A stretch of 64,000 bases of DNA, from the NCBI GenBank assembly GCA_921293015.1, contig OV121081.1:59723022-59787021 (forward strand). The letters run 5' to 3'. Numbering within the stretch: position 1 is the stretch's first letter; each line of letters begins with the position of its first letter. The notes beneath the pieces are model-generated. The model was not told the origin of the DNA. It saw nothing but the letters and a program-made list of their open reading frames with translations, and did no database searches. The DNA comes from Phorcus lineatus. Its lineage: Eukaryota > Mollusca > Gastropoda > Trochida > Trochidae. A program made the position numbers and the translations under genes. This document shows positions 1-64,000 of the stretch, in pieces.

Positions 1-254
1 CCTGCAGTTGCATGTAACATAACATATAATTAGATATAATTCTCAATTCTAGAGGGAAAACAACAACAGTGGTGAAAATTAATGTCACCGTTGATACTAG
101 AAATAATGATTTGACAGCTGTTGGTTTACTTCAAGATTTATTTGATTATCATAAATTTTAATTCCCTCATTATTTGAATATACTTGAATTTAAAATTTGA
201 TAGCGGCTTCAGAATCAAAAGTGCCTATATATCTTTTGCGTGTTATTGGTAAGA
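1..254. other. No gene seen
   Basis: AT-rich sequence upstream of the first SINE. I see no coding signal. A short frame spanning 197-391 runs into the SINE and is a by-product of it. Confidence 0.5.
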
Positions 255-559
255 GGGGCGGGATAGTGGTTAGCGCGTTCGGCTTCGGATCAAGAGGTCC
301 GTGGTTCGAATCCCTTCAGGGGCTCTGCAACTTTGTCTGCACTAGAGAACTGTTCTACATGCAGTCAGGTTTGGGTGCAATTCTACACTGAATTTCAGTG
401 CGGTACCACCCATGGTTCGCTAGTTCCAGCCGACGCGCACAGGCTTCACCGCAATGCATAGCCACATTGGTGTTGCGGGCTTTCTCCCTGCAATAATACT
501 AGCGGCCGCGATGTCAGTAAAGTACTTTTGAAAGCGGCTTTAAACCCCACATCACCTCA
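255..559 (+). repeat. tRNA-derived SINE, copy 1 (near full length)
   Basis: The element starts with a tRNA-like head. An A-box-like segment (TAGTGGTTAGCGCG) is followed by a perfect B box, GGTTCGAATCC, at 303-313, which together form an internal RNA polymerase III promoter. A non-tRNA body of about 200 bp follows. It contains TGGTTCGCTAGTTCCAGCCG, a GCGGCCGC site, and a 3' end like TTAAACCCCACATCACCTCA. The same body occurs at 10987, 55435 and 60227, always on the plus strand, which defines a dispersed family. It would be transcribed by Pol III and mobilised by a partner LINE. The head does not fold as a working tRNA because the acceptor ends do not pair. It resembles the molluscan V-type SINEs, but I cannot assign the family by name. 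Confidence 0.85.
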
Positions 560-640
560 ACTATTCCTTTATGGTAAGATCTATAAGTATTCTCCAATAA
601 CAGTCAATTCGTCGTGCCCTTAGAGTTTCTGACACTGATG

Positions 641-805
641 CCATTAATCTATGACAGGACAATAGGATGTTAGTCTATGGAAGGAACAATAGTGGCGCCT
701 GAACGATTTCAATATCCCATTACGACTTTACCTCTCAGCCGTCTAACGAGTTAATAACCGTGTTGTAAATATCTCATTGCTTAGAACTGCATTTCAGTTG
801 AGCGT
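641..805. repeat. Duplicated block A0 (partner at 29493)
   Basis: This block matches 29493-29655 in the same orientation. The first 24 bases (CCATTAATCTATGACAGGAC and onward) agree at 23 positions. Later shared words include TAACGAGTTAATAAC and GAACTGCATTTCA. It is the first of a colinear series of paired blocks that define the large tandem duplication. I see no open frame conserved between the two members. Confidence 0.8.
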
Positions 806-1523
806 GTCTGAAGGCTACGATTGTAGACTTTAAAGGCAATAACATTTCATAAGTATAACTTCACATGTCTACAGGTTGATTAGATTTATTAACATTACTC
901 ATTCTACCATTGGCTGGTTATTCGATTCTGATTGGTTGTTTTGTCCGTTTCACAGTGTATCAATTAATGACTGGAGTTGCTCTGTTTACCTGAAATCAGT
1001 TTACAATGTATTAATACATACATTGACTTCAGCGTCGGTTTTCTGCTTTTAAATGTGATTAATCTCTTTCCAATAGGAATTAACCGTATTTCTTTTGTGT
1101 GTTTACACGGAGAGAGCAAATTGATTTGACTATATGTCATATTTTGTACAAAAAAGAAGTTTGAGTTATTAATCAGGGTAAACTAAGCTTTCCGCTACTG
1201 GGCATGCAGCATCATTCCTCGAATACGGTAACAAAACAATGACGCGACGTCATTTCGCGAGTCATATATTTGCTTCATAGGGATGTCGCAGTCTTTGTTT
1301 ACTATCAACACAAGAAAACAAACTTTTTATACGAGTCAGTATTTACATTTGTACTACGTACTATGACAATACCATTTTGTGAACATGCAGTATTAGTTTT
1401 ACCTTTGTTAACGCAAAATCCCCGATACAGACGAGTTCACTTTTGTCTCCTGAAGTCGGAACCTTTTACACCGTGCATTTCGCTAGGAAAAAGAGTTCAG
1501 CATTAAAATCGTCATGGTAGAAT
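806..1523. other. No gene seen
   Basis: AT-rich sequence with no convincing ORF. A 78-codon frame at 1270-1506 has no recognisable domain and no splice context, so I do not call it. Confidence 0.4.
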
Positions 1524-3440: not shown

Positions 3441-3453
3441 GTGCTTTAATCTA

Positions 3454-4022: not shown

Positions 4023-4059
4023 CACATTCCCATTCTACACTTGTAGCAATGAGTAACCT

Positions 4060-4235
4060 TTAACCTTCGGTCGCCGCCACGTCTCGATCAAGATCAACAA
4101 TGTATTAACCCATGTCACTTATCAGATATTGAACTGTCAGGAGAAAGAAATCAAAAACTGCCGTGTATAGTCTGATTGAAATGACATTAGATAGGTCATG
4201 CCATATTTCTGCCAGTGTAACCTTTTGAGCTAAGG
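4060..4235. repeat. Duplicated block A1, best conserved pair
   Basis: It pairs with 31525-31690. Bases 4102-4155 match 31561-31614 at 48 of 54 positions, higher than the other pairs I counted over 40 bases or more. Shared words include GATATTGAACTGTCA and GTATAGTCTGATT. Weaker relatives of its start, (G/C)ATTAA-C-ATG, occur at 641, 7990, 29493 and 33540, so the module also repeats inside each large copy. No conserved protein frame is seen. Confidence 0.85.
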
Positions 4236-4534
4236 CAACATGTAGTGTATGCGTTTAGATCTCCCTGATTGATCAATCTATTGTCTATTGACTATATGTC
4301 CTAATGGTCTAAACATAAATACGTATTGTGGCACCCTCATTTATGAGCGATTTAGTGTATTGTATGTAAAATTGAATGACAAATTTTTTTATATATGGCC
4401 CTATCAATTCCAATAACATAGAATTATTAAAATGTCGAACATTACATGAACATCCACCAGTCATTCCGTGTGTCATGAGACTGATGGTATTCGAAAATTT
4501 ATAAATTGACATTAAATCAGGCAAAAAGGAAATA

Positions 4535-4625
4535 TCCTTTTTTGTATTCCAAAAATAGTTTTGACAAATTCCTTTCATCATGAAGCAGTGTTCTAAGATC
4601 AAAGCTGTTGATAAGTAAATTATAT
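4535..4625. repeat. Duplicated block (partner at 32515)
   Basis: It matches 32515-32610. The clearest word is GTTGATAAGTAAATTA, preceded in both copies by TTTTGACAAA and AGCAGTG. Order and orientation agree with the neighbouring pairs. Confidence 0.7.
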
Positions 4626-6011
4626 CATCATATTCGCAGGGAGTGAAAAATCATCATTTGTTTGATGAGAGATAATGATATGTGGATCATATAAAAAACA
4701 CTTTTAAAGTTGTTAGATTTCGAGTTTAAGAAGACACAGATAAAAAAGGATCATTAATCTTGAAGTTATACAACAAAGTTGTTATTTAACATTTGAACAT
4801 AGTCTAATATCATGAGCAAACATTTTTATAATACATTATCTGTCACTTATAGGAAATAACTCTGTGTAAACTTGTATATAAAAAAGCGCACATTCGTATT
4901 GTAAACACTCCAACAACCTATTTTGCTGAGTCAAGTATTAACCAGTTGGCGTTAAATCGTGAACGTGTCTACGATACGCAGTAATCTTGGAATTATCGTA
5001 CCAGTGTCATGATAATAATCTCACAAGATGTTAAGTTGACGTAGACTTTGTTCGACTTTATTCTATTGGTGGTCAATGGGATTTGGATATGTTGAACGCG
5101 ATCATGGCGACATATTGAGGTTTGAATTGGTATGAATTGGCAACGTTGTAGACTGTGACGAATGATGTATGGAACAATTAGCCCTCTCATTCAATAATCG
5201 GAATAATGTGACGTTTAAAGATTGTGTTGATGTTCTGATTTCCTATCAAATAACCTTGAACAACCATTATTAAGATCTTTTTGTGAACATTATTGGACTT
5301 TACAACATTAGTCTATCTCAAGACCGATATGTCGACTTATTAAATTCATTGAGGGGAGAATACTGACTTCTTCGCCGTAGATGAACAGTAGATCATTGGT
5401 AAAGAAGAAGAAGACTCATTTACAATTTCAGTTCTTGATTCTCATACATCACTGCAGGGAAGTTTAAGGTCCACAGAGACTGTTACTGAGGTGTTTTGAT
5501 TTAGATATACTAGTGGGCGTTTACCAATCATATTCATTGTGTACAAAATATACTTAACACTTGCTTAAGAATTGTCCGAAAATGCCAGTGGGTGAGCATA
5601 TGAAGTTAAATGTATGTGAGAAGCAACTGCCGTAAAAATTCAAACGCAACGGCTGTTTTAAATGTTGTCATTTGATTTTGCATGGAAACGAAGTTATCAA
5701 TCATCATGCCAGGCCTTACTGACTGAAATAGAAACAACGCTATGAGTCGCAGTTTGTAGTTGCATGCTAATTGAATAATGGTCAGAGCAACATAAATTTT
5801 CCTGCAAACCGATTCTTCTCAAAAGAGACTAATAAATTGCTTCTAATTAGCAGCTACCAAGCGGCCACAGACTGTTCATTCACTCACTTGCATCATGGCT
5901 ATCCTCTTTTCACAATTGTGGAGGCTACAACACAACGCAACCTTGTCAAGAGAAAGCATTCCAATACGAAGAAATCATTAACATACAGTGGATATTGGTC
6001 CAAGGATGTCA
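4626..6011. other. No gene seen
   Basis: AT-rich sequence. Frames at 4993-5190 (minus) and 5771-6040 (plus) lack domains, and the second runs into the foldback element at 6012. Confidence 0.4.
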
Positions 6012-7848: not shown

Positions 7849-7939
7849 TAATAATGAAAGCGCAACTAATTCATGGATTTAAGTTCTAAAGTCTATAGAT
7901 CACTGTTTGTTCCACTAAGGGCAATCGGTATTCTGTTAG

Positions 7940-8100
7940 AAGAATGGTCATCCCTTGAATCCATTGATCAGTGCCACATTTTATATTAACCTATGTCGCC
8001 ACCCACTTATCGATCTGTCAAGTGACAGAAATGAATTTAGTGTATACAATCTATGTTCAGGTCATGTTAATCTGACATCCTAACATCGTTCTTGCTTTAT
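7940..8100. repeat. Weak repeat of the block-A1 module (A2)
   Basis: It resembles 4102 and 33540. It carries TATTAACCTATGTCGCCACC, then a CTGTCAAGTGACAGAAATGA stretch, and then CAGGTCATG. Similarity is patchy, but spacing to the next block (8690) matches that of the copy-B counterpart (33540 to 34229). Confidence 0.45.
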
Positions 8101-8858
8101 ATTTGTAAGGGATCAGGTTAAACATTTTATCACTGAACATGGCTGAGACTGATTTTAGTAAATAAACAAGTCAAATGCAGATAAACGTTTATGTATAATG
8201 CTCTAGTAATCGTTGACATGCTTTTGTTAACAATCGTATTAGAACTGTTGTTTAATGACGGATCACTTAGATGACTGTTCAAGCTTTTAGAAACGTTAAA
8301 TTGAAAAAAGTCACATCATTTTTTAATCTTTAAGTTCTCCATCTGAATTACCTGAAAAGCCTTATTACCATCAATTACCAATCAGTTACCGCCAATTAAA
8401 AAGTTTTATAACAGAAGATATTTCAGATAAACTCACCGCAGATACCTTTTTAAGCATTTTATTGATAAAAAGGGAATATTTGGATTCATTTGAATTTTGA
8501 AAGTAAACATAAAAAATAAGTAAATGAAATTTTCTTTCAGTGTACCAGCTATAAAGGGGTAGAAGAGACAAATTGTTTGCATGGTTGAAAACATTCATCA
8601 TTTAGAGTTCTTTATTCAGAACAATGTACACTACTCGTGATTGTGCATTGATTCAATGGCGCACGTTTTAACTGGACCACTTTCACGTTTCCAGACTGAT
8701 CGATCTGTCAAAATGGACCCATTCGCTGTTATTGTAATTCCTGAGAATAAATATCATTACGGCTCGTTTCCTTTGGAAAAGCTGTTTCTGTATCAAGATT
8801 TGTTTCAATTTCCCAAAGTTAAATGCCTTGAAGACACTTACAAGAAACATTTTGATTC

Positions 8859-10184
8859 GAGAGCTACCTTGAGAACAGAGAACAAAGTGTTGTTATTAAT
8901 GGTTTCCGATCTGACAACAGGCAAGTCTTCGCTGGCGTGCCACAAGGTTCCGTCTTGGGGCCGCTTTTGTTTATTTTATATATCAACGATATAGTTGAAG
9001 GCATCAATTGCAATATACGGCTCTTCGCGGACGATACATCCCTATACGCGATTATTGGGGATCCCGTTGAAACTTCTGCTGATATAAATGATGACTTGAA
9101 GCGAATTTCTGAATGGGCGGACAAATGGCAGGTATCATTTAATCCAAATAAAACTGTTTCTATTCGGTTTACTAGAAAATTGCAACCAGTTCAAATGCCA
9201 GATTTGACCATGAATGATAATACTATTGACTCGGTTCAAAGTCACAAACATTTGGGCCTTACTTTACAACATGACTGTTCTTGGAATGACCATATAAATG
9301 AAACTGTTAAAAAGGTTGCCCCAATGGTTAATTGTCTTAGGAGTCTCAAATATAGATTGAACCGAAAAACATTAGAGATAATGTACAAACAGTTCATTCT
9401 TCCTGTATTTGACTACTGTAGTCATATATGGGATAACTGTACAAAACAACAAGCAGATATGTTAGAAAAACTTAATCTTGATGCTCTGAGAACTGTGTGT
9501 GGTGCCGTCCGTGGTACGAGTCATGATAAAATATATAAAGAAACAAATTGCAAACCATTAATCCATAGACGATATGTAAACAAATTAAGTTTGTTTTATA
9601 GTATGGTTAATAATAATACACCAAGTTATCTTAGCAACCTTGTGCCTCATAAGATATCAGATTTTGTTGATTACAATCTTCGCGATGACTCAAAACTTCA
9701 GACCATAAACTGTAAAACAGTAAATTATGCAAAATCCTTCCTTCCTGACACAGTTAAATTATGGAATTCATTACCGATAGAACACAGAAACTCCCCATCT
9801 TTATCGACATTCAAAAAAGCCATAGACACGGAAACTGAAATGCATACTAATTTCGACTTACATTATGGTAGTAGATTTTCTCAAATAATACATTCTCGCC
9901 TTAGACTTGAATGCAGCAACTTAAATGCACACAAGTATGAAAGATTCATATCATCAACTCCCGACTGTTCTTGTGGCCATAACTATGAAGATTCGACCCA
10001 TTATTTCTTTTCATGTCCATTGTTCATGAATATAAGGGAAAATATGTTTTTCTATAACAAAGGTTTTGACCTGAGATCGGTCCTATTTGGAAACCCAAAT
10101 TGTTCCTCTTATGTAAATCACGAACTATTGATATCTGTGCACGAATTTATAGATTTAACAGGCAGATTTGCATCGGATCCATAA
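8859..10184 (+). pseudogene. LINE reverse transcriptase, 5'-truncated but otherwise open
   Basis: The surviving frame of about 440 codons has no internal stop or frameshift. It begins [16 protein letters not shown], then has the RT motif [19 protein letters not shown] (near 8934) and the catalytic [10 protein letters not shown] (near 9020). These are followed by [23 protein letters not shown] and [13 protein letters not shown], and near the C-terminus a CSCGH ... HYFFSCPLF cysteine/histidine cluster. The [10 protein letters not shown] and FADDT motifs place it in the Jockey/CR1/L2-like LINE superfamily. It polymerises cDNA on nicked target DNA. The endonuclease and the first RT motifs are missing because of truncation. 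The intact frame suggests a fairly young insertion compared with LINE copy 1. Confidence 0.9.
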
Positions 10185-10422
10185 TTGATATATTTCATTG
10201 TTATATTGGTAAAGCTTGTTGGCGACTATATATTCATATATATTTTTTTTATATACACCATGACATGTTCTTTATCTTGCTGGCGTATGTATAGATAAGT
10301 ATATATATTCATTATACAATCACCATGATATGTTCTATATTTTGTATTTTGGAGCGGTATTAACATAAGCTTCTAGCTTGTTTACCAATCCAGTTCTTTT
10401 CTGAAATAAATATGTTTAAACC
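8859..10422 (+). mobile_element. 5'-truncated LINE copy 2, flanked by 12-bp TSD
   Basis: An exact 12-bp duplication, ACATTTTGATTC, lies at 8847-8858 and 10423-10434. The element starts abruptly in the RT domain at codons for ESYLENR and ends about 240 bp after the ORF stop, with AATAAA at 10405-10410. The 3' UTR is very AT-rich. The unoccupied version of the same target survives at about 34370-34420 in copy B: joining 10435 onward to the left flank matches it at 32 of 40 bases across the junction side. This shows that insertion happened after the large duplication. Confidence 0.92.
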
Positions 10423-10675
10423 ACATTTTGATTCAATTGATTTGCAAATTGCAATTTCATTTTCTAATGATCTGTTTTTGACTTTTGGCAAACAGAATTT
10501 CGTTTTATTTAGTTTCAGGAAGATTAAGATATCTGAAGCAGATTTAATTAATAAAGAACAAATATTAGTGAAAAATAGAATTGATGTCAAATTGGGATAC
10601 ATTAAGGCATTTAAAATCAAATTTAGAAGAACTTGTAAACAATATTACTCACGGTGTCAATGTCTTTACATGTAA

Positions 10676-11285: not shown

Positions 11286-12269
11286 TGACCTTTCGTCTTT
11301 CAACGAGCGCTCTGTAATCACATCATCCTCGCCACACGTCATACTGATAAACACTTAACCATCTTTAAAACCTTTTAAAATGGATGTGTTGTTTCAGAAA
11401 TCATTTGCAGCATTTCGATTAGATCGTTAGATATGACATTGACGTCTCACGACTGATTCAAAGAGTGATTACCTTTTTGAAGGCAAGAAAATAATTCACT
11501 GTTCCCCTTGTTTAGATTGGTATACTTGAGATAAACGACAGTGACAAAATATTCTCCTTTTTAAAAATGTGTTCGTTTATGACCTTGAAGAAGAAAATCT
11601 AAATATAGAATATAGGTTTATATGTACTTGTTCCTTTCCTTAAGAATAAGAGTCTCAAAGATCTTGGCTTTATGCTCTAATATACACACAACCAACAAGT
11701 AACTATTTTATCATAACTTATACATTATTATTGTTTCATCAATTTGATTGTCAAAATGAAAATTCGTTAATGAAAATACATATTTATTTCATAACTATGT
11801 AATATTAAGGTTGATATACATTCATGTCATCAGTCATTCCATGATTTATTAATAAAGAGCATGATGTTTTATGTAGAGACTGTTAGTTTATCTTTCTCTA
11901 AACTTTCGATATTCATAGTTTTGTCAAACCTGAAATAAGAGCATCATGATAAGGTAAGGGCTTAATTCATCCGAAATGGCATGAACAAATGGCATGCGTT
12001 TCTAATACATTCAGCTTTGGTGATTTTTGCTTAACTCTAAAGATGTAGATTCTAATCCCTCAATGTATGAAGTACTCATATGATAATTTTCAATTATAAT
12101 CTTAAATTATTGCAAACATGTAAATAAGATTAAAACGTTTCCTCCAAATTATCCTATTTCATTTTCAAAAAGAAGTCCCCGTAAACGCCCTAAGGCATGC
12201 ATTGTATAAACGAGCAACAAGACTATAAACAATTAGCATTGGAAATAGATTTGTAACAGGCGAGAGAGC
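11286..12269. other. No gene seen
   Basis: AT-rich sequence with no recognised element or coding frame. Confidence 0.4.
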
Positions 12270-12450
12270 ATGTGTAATGGCCATGATTCTTATAATTGTG
12301 TGATCCTGTAAAATGCAGCTGTGTTTTCTCTTAATGATAGAAAAATGAAACGAACCTTGGAACAATAATGATCAGTTTTCAATAACACCTGTAAAGATAT
12401 TTATTGCAAATAATAACTGCTAATGTACATTTCAAATTATGTTTTATTGT
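12270..12450. repeat. Duplicated block (partner at 34930)
   Basis: It pairs with 34930-35115. GTGTGATCCTGTAAAATGCAGCTG matches its partner at 22 of 24 bases, followed by ATGATAGAAAA in both copies. Further on, TTTCAAATTATGTTTTATTG matches TTTCCAATTATATTTTATTG. Confidence 0.8.
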
Positions 12451-14229
12451 TTCGAACTTGTCATATGAAATGTGTATTTCATGATGCATAATCTGATTAT
12501 TTCAGAACATTTTCCTTTGATATTTCGAATTTTTATCTTCATCTTCATTTGTACTTCTTACTGATTTCGGGTAATTCAGAAAAAAACATCTTTCCCGTTG
12601 GTGGTAACTGTGAAAAATGTTAATTTCTGGTTTACAAAAGTGAATGGAAAATGCATTACTAATGCCAACGTGTTTTAAATGAAACGTTTTGTCACGTAAA
12701 TTATTCATTTACCAATACCCAGATGACAAAAGCTCTCTTTTGCTTGTCAAACTATCATACATACACGTGCACGTAGATAATGAAGGCTACGTTGCCAAAT
12801 CGCACCAACAAATTGTTATGCACGGGTAAAAAACTGTTTATACAAGTAGACATTTTATTCTACATTGTATAACAACAAAATGTAACTCGTTGTCTTTCAT
12901 CCAACATTTCACACTTCTATCATCTCCCAATCCAGCATTCAAAAGTTAAGTATAAAGGTAGCGAATGGGAAACAACGTCATATTGTTACAAATCGTAAAA
13001 AAATTATTCTATTTTTTAAAATTCATTTTTGCCCCCAAAATTGAAAATGTAAATCAACGTTTGTTGCTGATTATGATTCTTTCAATTTTAGTGATGACAC
13101 TCGCCAAATGGCCTTTTAACAAACTTATCCGTTTATGTGAACTTTCAAATTCATGAATCTATGTATCTGAGATATCAATTGATAACATGATTGTAAATGA
13201 TTTTAAAATGTGAGTTGTATACAAACATCTTGCAGAATAAACAAAATGAGTTCATTATGGTAGCAGTACTTGTTAGCAAGTTGTTCACAAGTTTGTATGT
13301 TTGTGTTCATGGTGTCTTATAATTAGGCCTCAAATAAATATTCATGTTCTTCTTGTTAGAACCGGACCAGTTTGATTTACACGGCGAGTTTATTCTCTCG
13401 GTCGAATTTATGATCATTGAGTATTTGTAACCATTTAAAAAAAATTCAAATGCTAATAAAACGAACTTTGTTAATTACTAATGTCTTGGATGTTTCTTCA
13501 TTTAATTTACTTATAAATCTTTGACAAATGTTATAAACTGGATAAAATAAGTTTGTTAAAGTAAGCCTTGACAAAATGAAAATATTTGTTTGGGTTGTAC
13601 TTGAAGACCTTTGTAACGAAAAACAGTATTGAATGATATTCGAAAAACAGTATTGATTGATATTCGTATAAGCTTGTATTGAAACATCTATACTGAAGTC
13701 AAAATACGCAAAAATAACAAATAATTTTAGAGTTTCATGTATGATAGAAAATCAAAACTGTTTGGATAAAGTAAGCATTTGGTGTAAATGAATTCAAAAT
13801 TAAAGGAAACAGTTGACAGTGTTTATATTTTTATCATTGACAGACAGATGAAAAAAAACCTGTCACAGACAAATATTTTGGAAATCTAAGTGAAATTAGT
13901 TACTTAATTTATCTTACACATCCTTGAAAAGCTATTGTATTAAAATTCATTTCAAATTTCTATTCTTTAAAATCAATTTTGTTATCATGTGTACTAATGT
14001 TAATTTCTTAATTGCTCTGCTCCCACCCCTCCAATTAATTCGCTGTATTGATACATCTTACAGGGGTATTCCTGGGAAGTAGACATTTGTTATTACAGTA
14101 AAAATCCTTTGATGTCAGGGGGAGGAAGGCGTGTGTTGTTACAAGGGATTAAGTCTCTGGGAAATACAAAATTCTGAACTCCACAACGAAACAGGAGCCA
14201 ATTAAGTCAACGAAACAGTGAATACTAAC
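12451..14229. other. No gene seen; small direct repeat at 13617-13666
   Basis: AT-rich sequence. A 23-24 bp word, CGAAAAACAGTATTGA(A/T)TGATATT, occurs twice in tandem near 13617-13666. Minor frames at 12502-12708 and 12965-13156 carry no domain. Confidence 0.45.
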
Positions 14230-15112
14230 ATTGATTAAGTGAACATGAAATCAAATATTTGATCAAGTGAACACTACATTTCTCAAAAAGTCAATGCTAT
14301 TATTAGACTGATTGACATTGATCAAGTGAACACGAAATCAAATATTTGATCAAGTGAACACTACATTTCTCAAAAAGTCAATGCTATTATTAGACTGATT
14401 GACATTGATCAAGTGAACACGAAATCAAATATTTGATCGAGTGAACACTACCTTTCTCAAAAAGTCAATGCTATTATTAGACTGATTGACATTGATCAAG
14501 TGAACACGAAATCAAATATTTGATCGAGTGAACACTACCTTTCTCAAAAAGTCAATGCTATTATTAGACTGATTGAAATTGATTAAGTGAACACGAAATC
14601 AAATATTTGATCAAGTGAACACTACATTTCTCAAAAAGTCAATGCTATTATTAGACTGATTGACATTGATCAAGTGAACACGAAATCAAATATTTGATCG
14701 AGTGAACACTACATTTCTCAAAAAGTCAATGCTATTATTAGACTGATTGAAATTGATCAAGTGAACACGAAATCAAATATTTGATCGAGTGAACACTACA
14801 TTTCTCAAAAAGTCAATGCTATTATTAGACTGATTGAAATTGATCAAGTGAACACGAAATCAAATATTTGATCAAGTGAACACTACATTTCTCAAAAAGT
14901 CAATGCTATTATTAGACTGATTGACATTGACCAAGTGAACACGAAATCAAATATTTGATCGAGTGAACACTACCTTTCTCAAAAAGTCAATGCTATTATT
15001 AGACTGATTGACATTGACCAAGTGAACACGAAATCAAATATTTGATCGAGTGAACACTACCTTTCTCAAAAAGTCAATGCTATTATTAGACTGATTGACA
15101 TTGATTAAGTGA
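14230..15112. repeat. 87-bp satellite array, 10 units
   Basis: The word TCTCAAAAAGTCAATGC recurs at 14281 and then every 87 bases exactly up to 15064, giving ten units with no indels. Each unit contains the 14-bp palindrome ATCAAATATTTGAT flanked on both sides by near copies of TTGATCAAGTGAACAC, so there is a sub-repeat inside the unit. Units differ at a few diagnostic sites (TGATCAAG or TGATCGAG, TACATTT or TACCTTT, GACATT or GAAATT, GATTAAG/GATCAAG/GACCAAG). Neighbouring units 3/4, 6/7 and 9/10 share most or all variants, a sign of recent local duplication. The unit length is a multiple of three, but no frame is open through the array. Confidence 0.95.
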
Positions 15113-15419
15113 ATGCAGATGCCGTAGCATATTTGTTTAAACTGCAATGATGTGTGAGTGAAATGTGTAAATTATTAAAAATGAAATATGTCCATCTCTC
15201 CATTAAATGATATCAAATTTGGTAATTATTAAAATATGACCACGTGTGAACTATGTCCATTCCTCCAAATAAAATGGTTGTCAAAATTGTTGCATATTTT
15301 TAGATAAAAAGTGCTTGAATGAATTGTTGAACATTGTTTTCCATGAATAAATACAAACTTCTCTATATTCACTTATGTTTTATGTTACACCTGATCTTTC
15401 AATTTCGGTTCATTTCCAG
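15113..15419. other. No gene seen
   Basis: AT-rich spacer after the satellite. Its end forms a pyrimidine-rich stretch, TTTCGGTTCATTTCCAG, that could act as a splice acceptor. Confidence 0.35.
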
Positions 15420-15639: not shown

Positions 15640-15960
15640 ATGCATGACATTACGCTGAAAGTCGGAAAAGTTAACATCTATATATTTCTTCTATGCAAAA
15701 TAAAAAATGTGTCCCATGAATGTTTACTCGTTAGCGTCTATCCGTCCCAGACAACATTGATTCTGTATTTCTGTTCTCTTCATTGTTTACAATAGCCTAA
15801 TTAAAGATATACTTTATCAAAAACTCGATTTCAAAGCATTCACTATCAAAACAAAATGCAGACTAACAGCCGCTCCAAAGAAATATTATACAACATCAAC
15901 ATTATTGAAACGCTTTAAGGCGTTTGTAGATAGAACAGCCAATTAACAAAGTCGCTAATC
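15640..15960. repeat. Duplicated block (partner at 40660)
   Basis: It pairs with 40660-40985. Shared words include CATGAATATTTACTCG / CATGAATGTTTACTCG, TTGTTTAC, CTAATTAA, CAGACTAACAG and CATTTGTAGATG / CGTTTGTAGATA. The order is the same in both. Confidence 0.8.
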
Positions 15961-21060: not shown

Positions 21061-21072
21061 TCGTATCGTTAT

Positions 21073-40985: not shown

Positions 40986-41009
40986 CTAACTGGACTGGAC
41001 TCATTCAAG

Positions 41010-47030: not shown

Positions 47031-49390
47031 TATTTATAACTTTACGCTTTTTGATGAGCGACAGTCATGTCGACCTTCTTTCTTTTCAAAAAAATTCAAT
47101 CGAACACTTACGGATATGCAAATTCAATGACATAAACACTTTCAAAGTTTACAACACGGCAAATACGTAGTTGGCATAGTTAGACGTAACGTATTTGATA
47201 TTAGCTAACGCGTTTCAGCCATATATCAGTTATTCGACACGTGGATGAAAATCCAAAAGGGATTGGACAGATTAAGGAAAACGGTATCGAAAAAAATGAG
47301 GGAACATACGGCGGGAAAGGCATAATGCAAGATCAACAGCAGGTAAAATGACTTCGCAATCAAATTCGGTCTGACTTCTAGTCGTCAACATTGAGTTTTA
47401 TGACCATGTCTTTTATATCAAGGTCACAGCTTGATATCTTAAGAACCAACCACTGAATGCTCTTAATAACTGACACATACATGTACCAACTGCAAGAGAA
47501 GAACCCGGAGCACATTCTATCTGGATCTGGATCTTGTGTCCAGGTCACATAAAACCTTTGAATGTGACCCATTTAGGTACATGTAGCAGTTCATTCACTT
47601 GCGTCAGCTCTGTATTGTAATTGTTTTAAACTTAGAGTGTCAAAAGCAAAGTCACAACTTAGTACTCGTATTTGCCTTAACGGAACTATAGCACGCCTTT
47701 TCGCGCTCACGTTGGCGTTTTAAGGGCAATTGAGGACAGTTAAACTTCACCTCGAAAAATACAATGACATACTTAATATTCTTTACAATTACCCTGCAGT
47801 AAGTATTGAAATAGCCGACGTCACAAAGGAATGTAAAAAGTCTTAAGTGTCGTTTGTGCACAAAAAGGAAAAGTGTTTATTGAAAATGGCTGAACTAAGA
47901 ACATGATCATGTTTTGAAAATAAGGTTATCTTTCAAATAAAACATGGAAAAGTATGAAATACTCGTAATAAAGATATCTTTAAGTTCATTTTTCTTACAC
48001 GCTGTAACGTTGTAGTATTAATCATAGGGGAACCATAATTGTTAAAGCGGTCAAAGTCGGCTTGGATATTTTTTCAATCGGTCAAGTTACAAGATTGCAT
48101 TTATAAAAACTATGTTTTATTCATTGTTCCAACTTCAGAGTTTCGGTAAATTGAAAAATAGCAGAAATTACTAGTTCAGCCGTTTTCAACAGTCAAAATG
48201 TTTTCCCCTTTTGTGTTCAGTTGACCATAGATTTTAAATATCTAAAACATCGGTCGACATTACTATATCATTGTTTATTGCAGATCAGTTGTCAAGAATA
48301 AACATTATTTCTTTACATCGATAGAAAGCTGAAGTGTGTACTTATATCCTAAACATAGCATTAGCTTTCTTATTCGAGTTCCTGCCGTTTATGCGTTTTT
48401 ATACAAAATTTGAATATCGCCTATATCGTTGTTCATGCGTAATTAATGCAGCGTTCCTTCCGGTGTTTTGCAAGTAACCTAATTTCATGAACATATATTT
48501 CCAAGATGTCTTTATAATCGGTTACCTGAGCTCTGAGTTAACTGTACATTACCCATATTGGTGCGCAATATTTTTGTACACCACTTCGATAATCATGTAT
48601 ATGTCACAGTTTCTTATTTGACTTCCAACTTCCATATGTAACTTCAAGCAGCTACCATTTAACTTCACAGACATGCGCAGAAAGATAACACGTGCTTGTT
48701 TATCTTCGTATCAATGTAACTATTGTCAATAAAACGAACTGGAACTAGAAGTGAAAACTAAACAATTTCCTTTGTGTTTCACATCTGTAACGATCTTCAA
48801 AACAAATATTACGTTGTGTATTATTCAAGAACAGGCATTGTTGAGACCTTTTAAGATAATTAAGTTTTGACAGACTAATACTTTAAATGGCGAGACTTGG
48901 CTTTTAGTAAGATTGAGCCCCAAGTATTTTGTTGCGACCAGTCATCAATCTTAACAGCCATTATCTATGAACAGTTTAAAACAATACTCTTGAAAGTAAA
49001 AGCTTTTTCTGACAATGTTCAATGTCATATTGATTTCCCTGGAACAATCTAGCCCACTTACTTAATCAAAATTAACCCATATGCGCACGGGATCCAAGAC
49101 TTAAAATTGTTTAAAGGAAGTGAATTCACTTGGGTAAGTATAACATGTGTGCAAAAATGTGACCAATTACCTTTTTTGAGTGATTGCGATTGTGTTGAGT
49201 TACGTTTTTTCACCAATATATCAGTTAATAAACAAGTGGTTGACAATCGTCCAAAAAGAGAATGGGCAGATCAGGGAGAAAGGATGTTGAAAGGGGGGAT
49301 TGAACAGAAGCCTCTTGATTTAAAGTTAAAATATGGCTTAACATATAAAATGACCTAATCTCAATAAAATGAAATCTAAATGCTTATGCG
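47031..49390. other. No gene seen; one member of a short motif family
   Basis: AT-rich sequence. The motif CGTGGATGAAAATCC then GGATTGGACAGATTAAGG near 47238 recurs near 51892 and 51989. Frames at 47378-47861 and 49058-49358 lack domains. Confidence 0.35.
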
Positions 49391-53530: not shown

Positions 53531-55434
53531 ACTACATCACCCCAGACAGTGTTAACACACGAGAGACCAATCAGTACGTTGAACTCTTACCAGAGAGAAC
53601 CTCCAATGACGTAGACATTACTGTTGACAAATCGTCACCCCTCGTCATCGGCGTGAACGTTTTCAGTGTGCCCTGAAGAATTAATTAAGTACCATTGATC
53701 GACGGAGGATAGTTTTCAACTTAAAATAATAGTTATTAAGAGTTTCGGATTAACATGTTCAATATATTTGACACTTTTGCCAATTGGCGGGTCATATAGC
53801 CAACTTTGTTCGCTTGTTATTAGGTATTACGTACACAAGTTAATATACTGTTCCGAAAACGAATCCAAATCCTTATTTATTCGACACTTCCCCATGCATC
53901 TTTGGAAATATGTTCATGTCAGTTTCAGTTATTTTTCAGACTTGAAATCACCTAGCATGAATGAAATGCTAAAGTTTATAACTGTCAGCAAATGAGACAT
54001 TCCTCTCATCTAAAAGTGCTTTTGACATATAATATGCTAGAATGATCTTCAAAGTAAAAAACTATTTAAAGCTAATGGCAAATAATTGTTCAATCAGAGC
54101 TGTATGAGCGATCCTGATTTAACTAAATCTTTGAACAGTCAATTTCAAAGTTATAACTGTCAAATGAAAAACACGCATCATAGGCATGCGACATTAAAGG
54201 ATAACAAGAAAACACTGACTGGTGACAAGGAAGTGTTATATAAAAACTAAATTAATGATCCTACAGACTGCCATCTGCAAAAGACATGATTGAGTTTATT
54301 TGCATATATTTTGTTTACGTGACAGCAGTGTTCTTAGATAGACTCTTTTAATTCTCTGTGCAATAGTCCACGGGCTACTGACACTTTCTAGCTGTTAAAA
54401 AAGCCGTGTTATATCCACTGTTGTGCGTTTTTGAGATTATTTTAGTTTCTTCATATTGTCCAGATTAATTGCTAGTTTATAACGAAATATCATGTGAATA
54501 ATCAGTACTATATTGGAGAAGGGCAGAACGATTACGTACAAATTCGAGTCTTAACTCGTAAGTTTAACATTCAATAGATGTCTATAATATGTAATGCATC
54601 AGCGTTAAATACGTTTCCACAATTTAGTTATACTAAGTAAAGCGCGTCATTTTCCGTTTTTTAATCAAGATTAAAGCTTTATTTAATAGCTTTAAACAAC
54701 TGTCTCTAACAATCAGTATTGAGAACATGCAGAATGTATCTTTCCGAGGTTTATACTCGCCAGCCACATTGGAACCTGGTCGTATAAGGCATGTCTTTTA
54801 TGGAAGAGATTGTGGATGTCAGAACGTCAGGAACTGACATGGAGGCAGTCCACCAATATTAGACCACATATAGATGCTTATGCTAGACCATGTAAAGTAA
54901 CAAATACTCTCAATAAGATACGTCCTTAAACGTCCTTGGCCCGAGCCGGATCACTTCGGTCTATTTCAAGACACGTCTTCATGTACTCTGATTACGCCAG
55001 AAAAGTTATCCCCTTTTTACTGGTCGAAAGGATTCTCTAACAATATTTTAAAATGCTAATTCATCAATTTTTAACCTTATTGGTATGAATAATGATTATG
55101 AGATATTGATGGTATTCTTTAATAACTGTTTTGCAAGCCAAGTCTCAAATGTTTTGGCCCGCGTATACATAAGGGATTGATTTGGCAAAATCCTTATTTT
55201 CCCGACGCAACAACTTAAATTGCCTGTAACATTAATTATATCAATTATTATCTTTCTGTGGTAATTTAGTTGAAAGGTAAGGTTTGAAAAGAAATCTTGA
55301 AGTGATGGCGCAGTTTTAATTTCAAGATTGCGCAGGTTTAATTTAATAAAAAAAAACATTGCCAGACTTATCTTTCCTGCGTAAATGCCAGTATCATTAA
55401 AATATTATTCATTGGAACAAATAATAATAATGTT
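53531..55434. other. No gene seen
   Basis: AT-rich sequence. Frames at 53768-53995 and 55096-55359 lack domains. Confidence 0.4.
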
Positions 55435-55575
55435 ACACTGAATTGAAGCGCAGTTCAACCCATGGTTTGCTAGTTCCAGCCGATGCTCGCAGGTTTCACC
55501 ACAATGCATAGCCAGAATAGTGATGCGGGCTTATTTCAGCAGCCATACTATAAGTGAAATACTCGTGGAGGCGGC
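55435..55575 (+). repeat. SINE fragment, copy 3 (head missing)
   Basis: It matches the body of SINE copies 1 and 2: ACACTGAATT, CCCATGGTTTGCTAGTTCCA, GCTCGCAGGTTTCACC and ATGCATAGCCAGAAT, and then a shortened end with AAGTGAAATACTCGTGGAGG. The tRNA-like head and the promoter boxes are absent, so it cannot be transcribed on its own. Confidence 0.8.
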
Positions 55576-56251
55576 ATCAGAGTGTAACCATTGGAGCAGA
55601 CCTTTCACAAGCTTTCGGGTTGCGGAATCAAAGTTAAAACCATACAAGACTCCTTCGAGCTGCCATTACCAGCCACAGCTACATGTAATTTACGACACGA
55701 TATAGAAACTAAAAATTAAAAAAATGCATTTGGAATATTTCCTTATATTAAATATTTGGTGTTGCCTCATTTGTATCTGATGTAACATAAGTTCCCTGGA
55801 AATAATGACATTCTGATGACATTTGGAATATGAACATACTTAAGATTAAGAAAACTGAATGGAATAACATTTTGTCTTTCTTGGAAAAATACTTTATCCA
55901 TTTTAATATCTTACGAAGATTCTTTTCTAAGCGATTAAAAAGCAATAACTAAGTTCACTTTACTACAACTTTTTTTTAAACCTTTGAAAACCTTTGATGC
56001 GATGTCCTTTCTTTTTTAACCGCTGAGCAGTTTTATGATATAATTTACTTACCACCGTCTTTGATCTCAGAAAACTCTTCCTGGAAGACGAGAAAGGAAA
56101 GTATTGCTTTTTGAGGTAAAAAGACTGAATAGTTGTTACATTTGTCAAACTGGACAATAGAATTGCCTTCTTGTTATGCCTCTCAACTGTCACCTAGAAA
56201 GACAATTATTCTTTTTCTTACATTCTGATCCAGGAAGTAATCTAGTTAATA

Positions 56252-56256
<5 letters not shown>
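55576..56256. other. No gene seen
   Basis: AT-rich sequence. Frames on the minus strand at 55748-56193 are lysine-rich by composition and have no domain. Confidence 0.4.

Positions 56257-56308
<52 letters not shown>
56257..56308. repeat. (AT)26 microsatellite
   Basis: Fifty-two bases of uninterrupted AT dinucleotides. They generate the artificial tyrosine/isoleucine frame on the minus strand at 56190-56378. Confidence 0.97.
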
Positions 56309-56310
<2 letters not shown>

Positions 56311-56959
56311 GTGTGAATAAAATGCTGTTTTCCGACATGTATTTCTTTGAAAATATCTAATTGTTTTATATTTCGCATTAATTAGTTGATGATTTGATTT
56401 TAATCAAATCAAGCTCAGCTGTTCGTTACGTATAAAAGCAACATAAGTTTTAAGGAAACACACTCTTTGTCACTTAGATGCGCTCGTTGATGAGAAATCA
56501 ATATTAAATTTGTATATCATTTAATTGTTAGTCTAAGTTGACTGTCATCCTAATGAGGGTGGAAGTTGATAATTGTAGCCTTATTTAGTTTCAATGTCAT
56601 CTGACTTATCTTTATGATTTGTCAATTATGATAGGTAAAACAGGCCAATGATATATTGGAGAATCAGATATACAGAAAAAATTCAATTGCTAACATGAGC
56701 ATTTTCGTTGGAGGACGTTAACTAATGTGTTGGAATGTAATCGATGTAAGGTAAAATGAAATTTTGAAATAGAGCAGACTAGACAAAATTAGTCGGGATT
56801 GATACAAATATGTCGTTAAATATTGTTTTAAAATGCCATTACGATACATTAAAGATAAACGTTTTCAAACGTAAATAGTCACATATTCTCCGTAGCGATA
56901 TTTTACAAGAGCTTACTCTTCAAAATTACTTCACAAACATACAATAAATCAACATCCAC
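56309..56959. other. No gene seen
   Basis: AT-rich spacer with no recognised element. Confidence 0.4.
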
Positions 56960-57150
56960 ACTTAAACGTTGCATTTCATGCAATAAGAACTTGTTCGTCT
57001 TCATCAACAATATTTGCTTGATAACGGTGTTAGTAGCTACTCAGAAACGTTGCATACCATGCAATAAACCATTTGACCATCCAGAGATCTTCGTCTTCAT
57101 AAATAAGTACTCAACATTATTTTTGCTTGGTGAAATAAAAGCTTCTGCCT
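56960..57150 (+). repeat. Local direct duplication, about 90-bp units
   Basis: AAACGTTGCATTTCATGCAATAA then TTCGTCTTCATCAAC and ATATTTGCTTG is followed by AAACGTTGCATACCATGCAATAA then TTCGTCTTCATAAAT and ATTTTTGCTTG. The units are diverged. The 57-kb frame over it has no known domain. Confidence 0.7.
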
Positions 57151-60100
57151 CTGTGATCAAGCTGTTTCTTAATGTCGCTTGACGTAAACACTGCATCTTT
57201 CATGACTTCTTTACACCTAGAAGACTATTTCTGAAAAAATAATATTACCAGTTTGTTCACTGTACAGCTGTCTCAAGAGGGTGAATATCGGCAATTCATC
57301 CCACGCATCTATAGTGTAAAACTTTCCATTATCTCTGCTATTCAACCGTTTGTCACTTGCTATTAGTTTTATATAGAGTTTAACGAACTATAGATAAACC
57401 ATATCCTTTATCCAGATAAATAATATATTATATATATAGATCAGGTCGAACATGAGACTTCAAAGGTTTTGTTTAAAAAGGTAGCAGGCAATAACACTAT
57501 TATGAAATTAACATCAGTTATAATGAAATATTTTCAAACCTCTTTCACTAACTATCTCTTTCTTTCAGCATATTTGCACTTGGCGTTAATATCCTTCCAT
57601 CTGATGGGTCAACTTATTGTTTTGAAAACTGGTTTTTATCAAACGAAACGTTTTGACTGTGATAGATCATTTTGTATTTACAAAAATATAACCCTGTCAG
57701 CATAATATCCTGGAGAGTCATTTTTTACATGTGTCTAAACTCAATAAATCTTTAATTTCTCTTCACGAAAAATCATTGTTTGAAATTTTGTTGTTCATTA
57801 TTAATGTCGAATAAACATAATATAAAGGGTAGTGGTATATTTAAACTTTTTTCAAATAACGTTTATTCCTATAAAAAAGCATTGTTGTCACCGAGCTTAT
57901 GATCAAATCAGTAACTTTATCCTTCATAGAAAGAGCTTCTGTTAAGAAACGTTAAAAAAGTGTTTTCGGGCAGACACGAAAAATAAGAACAGAAACGGAT
58001 ATTTAAATAATTATCAGGTTATTGATGTAAATAGTTTTGTTATAACGGTTGTTCAAATGATGACTAATGATGACTTTGTCTGGTAGAATCTCGCAACTGG
58101 ATTTGTTGGCATTAGGTATAAATTTTTTACTTCAGATTTACTTTTAAAACAACCCCTCATCTAACCAGTCCGACAAAGGAGAAACAAATCGACTGAATAT
58201 AATATTTTGTAAATTGATTTTTATGTTGCCATGCACCCCATGCACTGGTTTCACATTTGTATAGCTCGTAAACATTAAGACGAGGTAAGATTGAACATTC
58301 ACATTGTACATCATGTAATCAACGTTTCATCAACAACAGCTACACATCTGAGCACACATTTATTGCAACTTGCTCTTCTGTAAACCTTTTGATTACATTC
58401 ATTTTAACAGACCTCTGTTTAACATACAGAATGGGTCAACCAGTGAACATATGCTGATATGCTGTAGATATGTATACACAGACTAAGTCAACATCGTCTC
58501 AAAGTGTCATTGTATAACTAGTAAAACATGGATCTTTATGGCTCAGTTTTATACATGGCCGTATGTCAATTCAGAAATAATTATTTTAGGATATTGACTT
58601 AGCTTCAAACGTTAACTTTATCATTCACCTAGAAGATTATTTTATGAAAAGAGTTTTGAAAAAGACCAAATACAATTTATCATCAAAGCATAACTTGTAA
58701 GGGTTTTCGCCTTTTTGGGAAATATATTGCACAGGCAGGTGTTTAATAGATAAAATGGCTTAATTTTTTAATTCATATGTTTTTTTCAGGCATGAGAACA
58801 AGTGAACATAATTAAAACGAGAGGAATTTTGACCTCCTAAATGGTATGTTATTGTTTCAAAAGGTCTGCAAAGATTACAGATAAATGTTCGTAAAATCTG
58901 CTAGAACAATCCTCAGATTATTCTGGCAAATATATACTTGTTATTTTACAGTTTGTTTTACAATAGACGACTACATTAAATCTGAAAACAAGATAATATA
59001 TTGTGTGATGATATTGCATAGGTTTGAGTGATACTGTACATGGTGTTAGAAGCAGTCGTTCATTTGTTTGAAATGACATACTCTCACAGAAATAGGGGAC
59101 AGGATATTAGTTTGAAAATTAGGACGGGGTTGATATTTCAGGAAATAAAAAGCTTTGCCGTGAGACGAGCTAAAATGCACTCAATTTGTCTAGGACATTA
59201 AGTTTTGTCTGCAAGGTCTCCTTTTGGTAAGTCTGCAAAGTACCAATGACAGTCAATGAGATAACATACATCTATATCATTATACATCAGTCTAAAGTCA
59301 TTTTAATTTATCAGTTAAGAATCCACCTCAGACAAGGTCTTAATCGTTAGCCTGCGTCTTTAAAAATTATAATTATAACCTGCAAAAATCAATAAAACAT
59401 TCACAAATCTTAAAGCTATTTACGCAAACAAGATTAAAGAAGAAACATAATATTATGTACATGATCAAATGTACAATCAATTTATATAGATATTTAGTTA
59501 TTACCTAATCATATTCCTTTATAGCCCAACATTTACAGAAATTATTTGAAAACTACGATTTCCCCTTGCAGTGCATTCACAGTTCAAGTGTGTTTTCGAA
59601 ACAATGGTTGCCTCTCTACAACAATAATTGAAAGAGACCACAAACCTATAACAATACTCCAAGGAAAACAAAAAGAGAAATTTGATTAAGTATCGTTGTC
59701 AGATCGACCAGCTGAGGGGTTGTCTGAAGTGATAGTACATCTCAAGTACAAAATTGATTTCTTAGGCCAACGAATCCCTAAGCGAGATGATCCGACTCGT
59801 TCTTGCTGATCACATCAGAACCTGAAAGGTGACAGAGATCTCGTAGGCGACGACACCTGCCCCTTCCCCTAATGAATTGAGACTTTGAAATCTAGGCAGT
59901 ATTCTCCTTTTTGTTTGGACTATTCGGTTACATTACAAGTATAAAAACTACTAACGAGAAACTTATTGAAACTTATTTCCTCTGTGAAGAAATCCTGAAA
60001 TTTGTTCAGCAATGAATTTGGAGACTCACTCTGAGGAAGGGATGAACAAGATTTATTTTGCCGATAAGTCTTTTGTCAAAGAGATTAGACTGTGCACTTC

Positions 60101-60226
60101 TTAACTTACTCTGATCTGTGCCAGGACGACTTAGCAATGAACTCTGGTGTCACGCTTCAGGATGAAACTGGTCTTAAAATTACACTTTTGTTTTCAACAG
60201 GAGCTTGCATTTCAAGCAATTCTTAG
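57151..60226. other. No gene seen
   Basis: AT-rich sequence. A frame at 57469-57705 has no domain. A less AT-rich stretch near 59750-59880 has no supported ORF. Confidence 0.35.
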
Positions 60227-60450
60227 CAGCTTTGTCTGCAGTAGAGAAGTGTGCTTCATTAAGTAAGGTTTGGATGCAATGTCATACTGAATTCAGTACG
60301 GTGCCAGCCATCGTTCGCTAGTTCAAGCCGATGCTCGCAGGTTTCACCGCAATGCAGAGGCACAATAGTGTTGCAGGCTTTCCCCCTGCAATAATAGAAG
60401 CAACCTTGTTATACTCTTGTAAGCGGTGTTAAACCCCCAATCACATCACA
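60227..60450 (+). repeat. SINE fragment, copy 4 (head missing)
   Basis: It starts at GCAGCTTTGTCTGCAGTAG and shares the full body with copies 1 and 2, including GTTCGCTAGTTCAAGCCGAT, CCTGCAATAATAGAAGC and the AAACCCCCAATCACATCACA end. The A and B boxes are absent, and the GCGGCCGC site has decayed. Confidence 0.85.
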
Positions 60451-60889
60451 TTGTGTCAATTTCTTTCAGTTTACGGTACTTAATTGACTTTTTCAGAAGA
60501 AGCAGTTTGTCTATATAAATATTAAATGACACAAGAGAGTGACATTTGAAGATCACAAAGTACAGATCGTAAAGTGGAATCAATGTGACAACTTCTCTCG
60601 GATGAGGCGGACACTAATTAGACACCACCGAGAGCATCAAGTTGGTTATTGAATTTCACAATATGAGCATTTTTTGTGTTTGTTCTAATTAAAAAAATGT
60701 TAAATCTCTTAAGATAAAAGTCTGGACATGTAACTTAGAGAAAATCTGAAAACCAGATTCGTTGAGGTTTTACCAAAGTTGACCATAAATTAATCAATAC
60801 AAATAAAGTTTGGAAGACCTGTAGTTTCTTCACACAAGAAACTTTCATAGCACTACAATGTACATGTGTTTGTAAAATCTGAATATGCT
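60451..60889. other. No gene seen
   Basis: AT-rich spacer. Its last part may belong to the LINE tail that follows, but no boundary can be set. Confidence 0.35.
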
Positions 60890-61010
60890 TTGTGAATTAT
60901 ATAATTGTATTCCGCACAGCCAATATGTATTTCAATACTGTTGTACTCTGGGCCATGGGCCACGAGCCCTCCAATACTGAAATAAAGACTTTGACGTTGA
61001 CTTTGACTTT
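60890..61010 (+). repeat. LINE 3' end fragment with (TTGACT)n-like tail
   Basis: It contains GTTGTACTCTGGGCCATGGG, then AATACTGAAATAAAG and a tail of TTTGAC/TTGACT units. The layout (GGGCC palindrome, AATAAA, short tandem tail) parallels the 3' end of LINE copy 1, which has GGGCCTTTGGCC, AATAAA and a (TGTC)n tail. No RT sequence is attached. Frames on both strands here (60853-61092) are by-products. Confidence 0.6.
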
Positions 61011-63314
61011 GGTAGATCAATGCAATGGCAGCTGTAGGGAGAAGTTTGTGTTTACCAGGGGGAATAATCGAGGCAACACTTGACTCGTCCATAGATGATC
61101 GAAGCTTTACTGAATGATCATCTCAGGTGTCTCCTTGCATTTATTGAGTACAGTACGAATATGATATATCATGGATACCTTTAATTATTGTATTGATATT
61201 TTGAGGTATTAGATAGATGAGGTCTAGTATGAACGGATCTGTAATTTGGTCGACCCACAAAGGGGTGATTCTGTGAGAACTTTGAAATTCCGTTTCCGAC
61301 TCCTCCTACATTGTGTCCCTCGTACCTTTCTTCCTTAAAAAATGAGCAGCTACTAAATGGATGAACAGTAGTGTTACTGAGGCGTAAATGCGTGGGATTC
61401 ATCACCAACACCTCTACCTCTTGAGACAATATTGACCAGAATAGTGCCATTATGTTTCAGACGTAGTCTTCTAGGCGTAAAGAACTCATGAAAGATGCAC
61501 CGCTCACGCCAAATGACATCAATAACTCGTCTTGGTCAAAGAAACTCTTTTTTCCAAGCCACTTGTATGAAGTATGTTTATTTAGTGATTAAAATTCTAG
61601 CTGCTCTACAATATGGAATGTCGATGTATGTAATCTGTTTAAGAAGTGATCCTTACTGTATACAGGTTCTTCAAGATCAAGAAGTTTTGATTTAATTTTT
61701 AAAAAATGTTTAGATAAGGTAATCTTCTGAAATTAACTCAACTCTCACAAGTTGTAAACGAAATTGAAATCTAGGTAAATTAGCTACTGGGTTAGTTTAT
61801 TGTGGATTTTTTTATTCACCATTAATCCCAGGTCTATATCTCCATGGCTCTATCATGGTTGGGTATATTCTAAAAAAGTGTTGTATCGTTTGAAAGTGGT
61901 TGCAAGATGGTTTTATAGACAATGTCCAAAGGATTGTAAGGGATACTATATCTCTAGGTTTGTTTTCAGACTGTTAACTTCAGAAAAGTCTTTTGTGTTC
62001 ATCAATAAGACGCCCTCTGTGTCTTGACAAGACATAAAACAACTTAAGTAGAAAATATCAGGTCAACTTGTCTTTAAAGATTTTTAAAGATAATTTACTC
62101 TCATGCAATCTTGAATCAAAGGTTCTGAAGGTCAGACTTCCACAAATTCAAATATCAATAGCCAAATTTATCGTCTTTCATTAATAATATAATCAGATCT
62201 TAGACCGTTTTCAAAGTATCCGTTTTGTTTGATTTTATGCTTGGAATCATCTGCTTTGCTCTATTTACTGAAACACACATCATTCAATTTAGTACCCTAT
62301 GCCAAGGAATTCATAATAAAAAAATGTATTTATGAAGAGATTTTTACCCCAGTCAAGAAAGACAAGTTGATTAAGATAAGTTATCAAAACCTAAATTACA
62401 CTGTAGGAGCAAATAATGTTCATTAGAGATCTATTGTGTTATACGTTTTACCATGAAAAATGCTAATTAAGTTTACGAATACCTGAATCAATTACACACG
62501 GCACCATTCATTTCAAAACTTTAATTCGTACATTTCGTGTAATATATACACTTTAACAATCCGGTTCCACAGGGAGCAATGGATGTAGCAAAATATGTCT
62601 GAGTTGCTGACAGTAAAGAGACATTCAAAGGAAAGCAATTACATTGTCAACTTTGACAAAAATAACAACTATTCTTTTTGGATCAAACAGTAATAATTTC
62701 ATCTCTTTTTTCCTTTGAAAAGGTTTCTGAGATCAAAGACGATGGTAAGTAAATCAAAAAACAAAATAGTTTTAGCTGTGAAAGAAGGACACTAACACAA
62801 AGACTTTCATATTTCTATTATGCAACGTTGTGTCAAACGTAAAGTGTTCTTAACTGAAAATTACATTTGCAAATAGCTTTCATAGATGTAAAGGCGTTTA
62901 AACGTTTTTTGCATGTAATGTAATTAGTACCTTTTTGATGATGTCATCCAAGTGTTAGTGGAAAAAATAATGTCAATTCTTTTAAAGAAAACTTCAAATA
63001 CCTACTTGAAAGCTGAAAAGTTAGAAAGAATGAATTGATTAAGCTCGACATAGGGGATATTTAACAATGTCTTTATAGATAGAATGGGTTTAAATCTAAT
63101 CAAATACTTCAGAGGAAAGGTAAAGAATAGATAATATTTAAACGCTATTAACCAGCTTACAGATAAATAAAACGCTATTGCCATAGTCCAAAGGTATATA
63201 CATGTAACTTGAAAGAGTTCAAAGTGATCTTCGGACCATAGACATTTGATAACTTATTATTTATTAAATAAACTGTACACTATTCGTTACTTAATGTGCT
63301 CTATGATAAGCAAC
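61011..63314. other. No gene seen
   Basis: AT-rich sequence. Frames at 61181-61450 (minus), 61495-61695, 61800-62027 and 62229-62426 (plus) carry no domain I recognise. Confidence 0.35.
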
Positions 63315-63480
63315 CTTTATTTGGTCCAATATTCGTCGAAAAGCCTCTATGTCAATTGCTCACAGAATTTCCCCAATTCCTGACATCCGCAATCTGGCTG
63401 TCAAAACACAAGTATTATTCCGCCAGAACCCTTAATTTGGTGACTGGCGGGCAAACGTAAATATAGCACATTTTCTTTAT
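63315..63480. repeat. Opening block of a third copy C (partner at 28760)
   Basis: It matches the block at 28760-28930, with TGACATCCGCAATCTGGCTG at 63381. If the tandem model is right, a third unit begins here and runs out of the window, giving a B-to-C period near 34.5 kb. Confidence 0.75.
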
Positions 63481-64000
63481 TGAATGCACGAGGCTACAAT
63501 GACCATGTCCAATGGAACTCATCACCTCGTTTTCTTTTCACACGTACAATTTCCTCAAGAGCATCAGGAGCCACTGAAATAGATTCACAGTCAGATATGG
63601 GACTCTTTACATTCAGAAATTATGTTGTATTTTGAATTGTCTAAATAACAGTTCATATCATTATGGATATCTAATTCAGTCGTTATTTAGGGAAAATGCA
63701 TCTTTTCAGCTTATCCAAGAATGCATAAATTAAGATTGATAATGTCAACGAATAATGTGATAGTATTACAAGGGTTTAGTATTTTTTTTATTGCACGCAT
63801 TTAAATTGAGGGAGAGAAATGTAAGTCTATAGTATTCTGTTCTTAATGATTATTTTATTTGTTTACCAGATTACTTATACTTGTATACCTTTTGAGTTAC
63901 GGGAAACGTATCAATTGTCAATGAAAACATTAATATATGTATTTTTATCATCCAAAATTGTGTTCCACAGGAGATCGCATGTGGGAGATCAAGCAATATC
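63481..64000. other. No gene seen
   Basis: AT-rich sequence. If it belongs to copy C, it should resemble 28930-29480. I see only patchy similarity. Confidence 0.35.

Follow-up and report, generated by a model that had tools for sequence, protein, structure and literature searches.

A 64,000-nucleotide stretch of the genome of the gastropod Phorcus lineatus (the window; contig OV121081.1, C1:59723022-59787021, in an assembly of 957.8 Mb and 74 contigs) holds a genuine ancient tandem duplication, in which two adjacent copies of a unit of about 29.6 kb, units A and B, carry short blocks in the same order together with copy-specific insertions. The window is part of a roughly 150-kb array of related blocks, whose largest repeat is the A/B pair (about 30 kb). 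We give a probability of about 0.45 to the reading that this array grew by local duplication and that the cores of its blocks have been held by selection, most likely as multi-copy regulatory DNA. Pairs were found by self-BLAST of the window, 280 kb of flanking sequence was fetched (80 kb of it downstream), and profile searches covered 344 kb, including 400 bases of N. Positions are window coordinates throughout, also where they are negative or exceed 64 kb.

An ancient tandem pair

The original prediction had proposed two old colinear copies from ten pairs of blocks recurring in the same order and orientation. All ten were recovered by self-BLAST (E-values 1.6e-9 to 4.4e-55), and the self-alignment proposed as a check yielded a same-strand chain running from 577/29429 to 20893/46843, with offsets of 22.7 to 28.9 kb within the window. 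Further pairs lie at 10427/34366 and 18945/43617, besides a weaker c-like pair (Table 1). Because two more A/B pairs straddle the window start, at -2322/27274 and -1215/28512, the repeat can be measured from start to start, at 29.6-29.7 kb. After transposons, one satellite and one other named repeat had been removed, 15 A/B matches were left, 12 on the plus strand and 3 on the minus. Every one of the 12 plus-strand matches falls in a single increasing chain, a length reached in none of 200,000 shuffles (best 10), and the claim of two old colinear copies is thus upheld. Reversing unit B left a best match with an E-value of only 0.008. The hand-counted ungapped stretches were likewise reproduced, at 48/54 (4101/31560), 43/54 and 41/50 (612 and 614) and 22/24 (4116), above the maxima of a reversed-sequence control over ten pairs, which were 31/54, 29/50 and 18/24.

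The pair resembles an ancient tandem segmental duplication in that large adjacent copies share strand and order and carry copy-specific insertions. It differs from a typical one in being far more diverged, in having spacers that do not align clearly and in sitting within a larger array of shorter modules; its blocks are 61-80% identical, whereas segmental duplications are held to a threshold of about 90% over at least 1 kb. The copy-specific insertions predicted between the blocks are present, and the sequence predicted there to be unalignable indeed shows no clear alignment. Ranked against Markov shuffles, three of nine spacer intervals came lowest, at 3, 4 and 6 of 100, and the others reached at least 17 of 100, or 8 of 20, so that the spacers retain at most faint A/B similarity; the lowest-ranking interval coincides with the weak second c-like block, which was found later. 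The clearest copy-specific insertion is a fragment of a long interspersed nuclear element (LINE) that splits block e of unit A, with the same 12 bases on each side, while the corresponding site in unit B is intact. Within block X', the inner part is an inverted copy of block X, the inverted similarity being about 61-64%.

A local array extending beyond the window

A third copy, which the original prediction had considered probable, was not found at the 30-kb scale. At E <= 0.01 the downstream 80 kb contain nothing that matches blocks b, f, X or h, block b has no third match genome-wide, and over 344 kb the profile matches of b, f and h (two each) and X (four) all lie within A and B. The proposed match between 28760 and 63315 is real (block a core 28685-28953 against 63241-63502 in self-BLAST, 62.7%, E = 4e-18), but it opens no third 30-kb copy; block a at 63241 occupies a different place in the pattern, within a run of roughly 7-kb modules. 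Family a has 12 profile matches, spread from -44 to +76 kb and mostly in shorter modules. Families c, d and g have 8, 7 and 7 profile matches.

The A/B pair occupies the middle of an array that extends from about -44 to +106 kb and has tandem modules on either side of the pair as well as inverted copies. Families a, c, d, g, i and j recur over the 344 kb, their partners being concentrated between about -20 and +106 kb. Two modules of roughly 7 kb, beginning near 59.1 and 66.6 kb, have their blocks in the same order (j, i, d, a, c, n); they are followed by partial modules near 75 and 80 kb, and the stretch from 88 to 106 kb holds another group of blocks, most of them inverted. On the upstream side, modules at about -18.6 and -10.3 kb match at 66-83%. 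Four mirrored blocks make up an inverted duplication of 54.7-58.2 against 59.7-63.5 kb. In trees of families a, c, d, g and n, neighbours mostly group together, with one upstream and one downstream set, which fits local growth of the array. The inverted duplication, the extension of the array beyond the window and the absence of coding signal described below are additions to the original prediction.

The prediction would have lost its footing had the blocks been dispersed repeats that lie here in the same order by chance. Genome-wide BLAST in 958 Mb, which covered blocks a, b and c, returned at least 4, 2 and 4 matches, counts that are lower bounds; every match lies inside the array, none is scattered elsewhere over the genome, and for these three blocks we reject the dispersed-repeat reading. 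The profile search adds further array copies to these counts. Family k, outside the A/B chain, does also match outside the array, and transposons are frequent here, but chance order sits poorly with a chain that no shuffle equalled, and we regard such an origin for the blocks as highly improbable.

Table 1. Positions of the blocks of units A and B and of other features in the window
Feature	Position	Strand	Remarks
Block b, A	577..816	+	Pairs with 29429-29672, 71.5%; genome-wide matches are A and B only
Block b, B	29429..29672	+	Partner of 577-816
Block c, A	4052..4229	+	Pairs with 31511-31688, 79.8%, gapless; 4 genome-wide BLAST matches, all within array
Block c, B	31511..31688	+	Partner of 4052-4229
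Block d, A	4529..4692	+	Pairs with 32515-32688, 67.4%
Block d, B	32515..32688	+	Partner of 4529-4692
Weak second c-like block, A	7932..8172	+	Pairs with 33485-33735, E 1.8e-5; c profile match at 7966
Weak second c-like block, B	33485..33735	+	c profile match at 33509
Block e first half, A	8597..8858	+	Pairs with 34143-34373, 61.3%
LINE fragment inside block e, A only	8859..10422	+	RVT_1; reverse transcriptase frame 8856-10184
Block e second half, A	10427..10551	+	Pairs with 34366-34487, 75.2%
Block e, B, unbroken	34143..34487	+	Partner of both A halves
Block f, A	12184..12506	+	Pairs with 34836-35174, 64.1%
Block f, B	34836..35174	+	Partner of 12184-12506
87-bp satellite array	14228..15113		10.2 copies, 97% matches; within the window, unit A only
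Block X, A	15698..15980	+	Pairs with 40695-40983, 71.7%; profile search start 15637/40651
Block X, B	40695..40983	+	Partner of 15698-15980
Block X', A	16245..17172	+	Pairs with 41931-42848, 61.0% over 969 columns; spans predicted blocks 16365 and 17085
Block X', B	41931..42848	+	Partner of 16245-17172
Block g, A	18945..19066	+	Pairs with 43617-43733, 69.7%
Block g, B	43617..43733	+	Partner of 18945-19066
Block h, A	20893..21138	+	Pairs with 46843-47109, 65.7%
Block h, B	46843..47109	+	Partner of 20893-21138
Inverted g block, start of B	27274..27477	-	Pairs with -2322 to -2112, 67.3%
Block a, start of B	28512..28959	+	Pairs with -1215 to -776, 61.9%
Inverted duplication, left arm	54704..58176	-	Blocks a, d, i, j on minus strand
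Inverted duplication, right arm	59696..63502	+	Blocks j, i, d, a; first of roughly 7-kb modules continuing downstream

Absence of a coding signal in the blocks

A tandem family of protein-coding genes was considered and rejected: the family-level coding test flagged none of 13 block families (lowest 5 of 60; family p, 20 of 60) and both of two transposon controls. Among 34 pairs in the window, the mariner-like pair described below stood alone in the codon-substitution test at k = 1 of 100, the next being at 7. In the wider array, three of 111 pairs reached k <= 3 of 60, namely a LINE, the mariner-like pair and the block p pair at 74/85 kb, which scored as coding-like in this pair test and not in the family test. 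Blocks b, e, f, X and h entered these tests as pairs only. Open frames shared within 17 families were not longer than chance (lowest 24 of 200), and when families c, d, i and n were inspected by eye for micro-exon genes, as short open exons bounded by splice-like sites, the differences were mixed or mostly amino-acid-changing. In Pfam searches with 25 distinct frames from the 86 window frames of at least 70 codons, only RVT_1 passed the cut-off, in two frames; one window frame compared with solved structures gave a best E-value of 0.48.

Selection, neutral persistence or noncoding RNA genes

In the explanation we favour, repeated local tandem and inverted duplication would have built the roughly 150-kb array, and insertions, deletions and substitutions would since have overwritten most of the copied DNA. 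Within it, short cores, about 100-300 bp long, would have survived under selection that most likely acts on them as DNA, and they may form a multi-copy set of regulatory elements such as enhancers or boundaries. In five families taken together, the core can be aligned in 90 of 98 copy pairs. Where A and B segments match modules elsewhere, the partner unit keeps 4 of 4 and 5 of 6 of them, a retention equalled by 12 and 45 of 20,000 random placements. This recurrence of the same cores in independent duplications suggests selection on noncoding DNA, with the cores acting as regulatory elements or as exons of long noncoding RNAs. The strongest conservation is seen in the core of the block p pair (74.0-74.5 and 85.3-85.7 kb; L026, L027), where 97 of 100 bases are identical and identity in the flank falls to 54-70%; further copies of block p lie near 88.3, 88.6 and 94 kb.

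Several points weigh against this explanation. Identity differs only mildly between blocks (p 0.006-0.008), the range of the placement control for unit B stops short of one observed segment, and constraint is read from paralogs rather than from a second species. There may be other reasons why these segments can still be detected, and gene conversion may have acted between copies. In some pairs family a is weak or missing, 4 of 36 being unaligned, so that some copies seem to decay. In a rival explanation the array would be an old and functionless relic, its matches being stretches not yet broken up, perhaps refreshed in places by gene conversion between neighbouring copies. The mild differences in block identity fit such neutral decay, as do the many insertions and the long matches, at 66-83%, between close modules. 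Between older copies, however, alignment tends to end near the core edges, while close modules align on into the flanks; independent duplications also share the same cores more often than random placement would give, and we consider a neutral relic somewhat unlikely.

The blocks could also belong to a tandem set of noncoding-RNA genes, one in each module, and serve as exons or promoters for their spliced long RNAs. The fixed order j, i, d, a, c, n within modules would be expected of such genes, and the 52 tests for conserved splice-like sites flagged 7 at k <= 1 of 30, against an expectation of about 3. The flagged sites, however, lie on both strands, even within a single family (d, F9), and a pairwise scan of 16,662 aligned columns found 2 on the plus strand and 10 on the minus, with no clear exon chain. 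Consensus folding gave no convincing structure either: scores below -4 came from near-zero-energy folds, and the score of family i moved from -3.2 with two copies to -0.4 with three. We regard RNA genes of this kind as a possible but less likely reading. At the gathering score, Rfam recognised nothing in the window and one transfer RNA (tRNA) in 130 kb of flanks. Sub-threshold matches resembling mir-223 at about 1512-1655 occur on either strand of an inverted repeat and are read as chance. No motif common to the block families was evident (largest mean z 2.4), and viral contigs yielded 0 matches in two motif scans.

Neighbouring genes and significance

Within the 280 kb of flanks, the nearest recognised genes are upstream and consist of exons for chitin synthase (PF03142) and myosin head (PF00063), between about -199 and -64 kb. 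Chitin synthase frames lie on the minus strand in L009 and on the plus strand in L018, and myosin head frames in L005 and L012; the Pfam search covered 9 of the 74 flank frames of at least 105 codons. Two or more myosin-linked chitin synthase genes probably precede the array on its upstream side. According to PMC3942024, chitin synthases fused to a myosin head occur in lophotrochozoans, and some stand in tandem in the mollusc Lottia. The chitin synthase genes here are the nearest ones recognised, and are candidate targets at most. That an array of seemingly selected noncoding modules, with no recognised genes of its own, might be a multi-copy regulatory or long noncoding RNA locus, possibly serving the neighbouring chitin synthase genes, is an idea we find rather doubtful. 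If true, it would describe a tandem family consisting only of control DNA, in a shelled animal.

Duplicated conserved noncoding elements of vertebrate developmental genes are similar in that noncoding cores are kept between paralogous copies. The present array differs from them in that many copies lie in one array, the paralogs are compared within one genome and no developmental gene is recognised nearby. Cis-acting long noncoding RNA loci of bivalve shell formation (PMC11464482) offer another likeness, as noncoding loci near possible shell-formation genes in shelled animals. Those loci, as far as that article's main text describes them, are transcribed and concern other genes, with chitin synthase appearing there 0 times, whereas the array is known from sequence alone. 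Judged from listed entries, the literature on duplicated noncoding elements or arrays held nothing that we recognised as alike. Studies of tandem families usually trace the coding genes; here a large array seems to have arisen, and to have kept its cores, without detectable coding sequence. Should the cores prove conserved across species, one noncoding element could be compared in about a dozen paralogous copies; if they are not, the array would show clearly how completely an old duplication can be wiped out in an invertebrate genome.

Other repeats in and around the array

Two mariner-like copies, at 23655-24152 and 37413-37920, occupy non-corresponding places in A and B. Their frame has a helix-turn-helix match below the Pfam cut-off, and the mariner label is our own, given from that frame. 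A short repeat headed by a tRNA occurs in four places; its end seems to resemble mollusc repeats. The reverse-transcriptase frames, the mariner-like frame and this repeat mark the window as eukaryotic, and the host would be a mollusc or a close relative. Unit B contains a local direct duplication at 41002-41776 (64.8%). A GC-rich stretch lies at 53.3-53.7 kb, with frames that seem to resemble a decayed Tc1-like transposase. Upstream, two tandem arrays with a unit of about 63 bp, from -37.3 to -35.7 kb and from -31.9 to -31.1 kb (L021), match each other.

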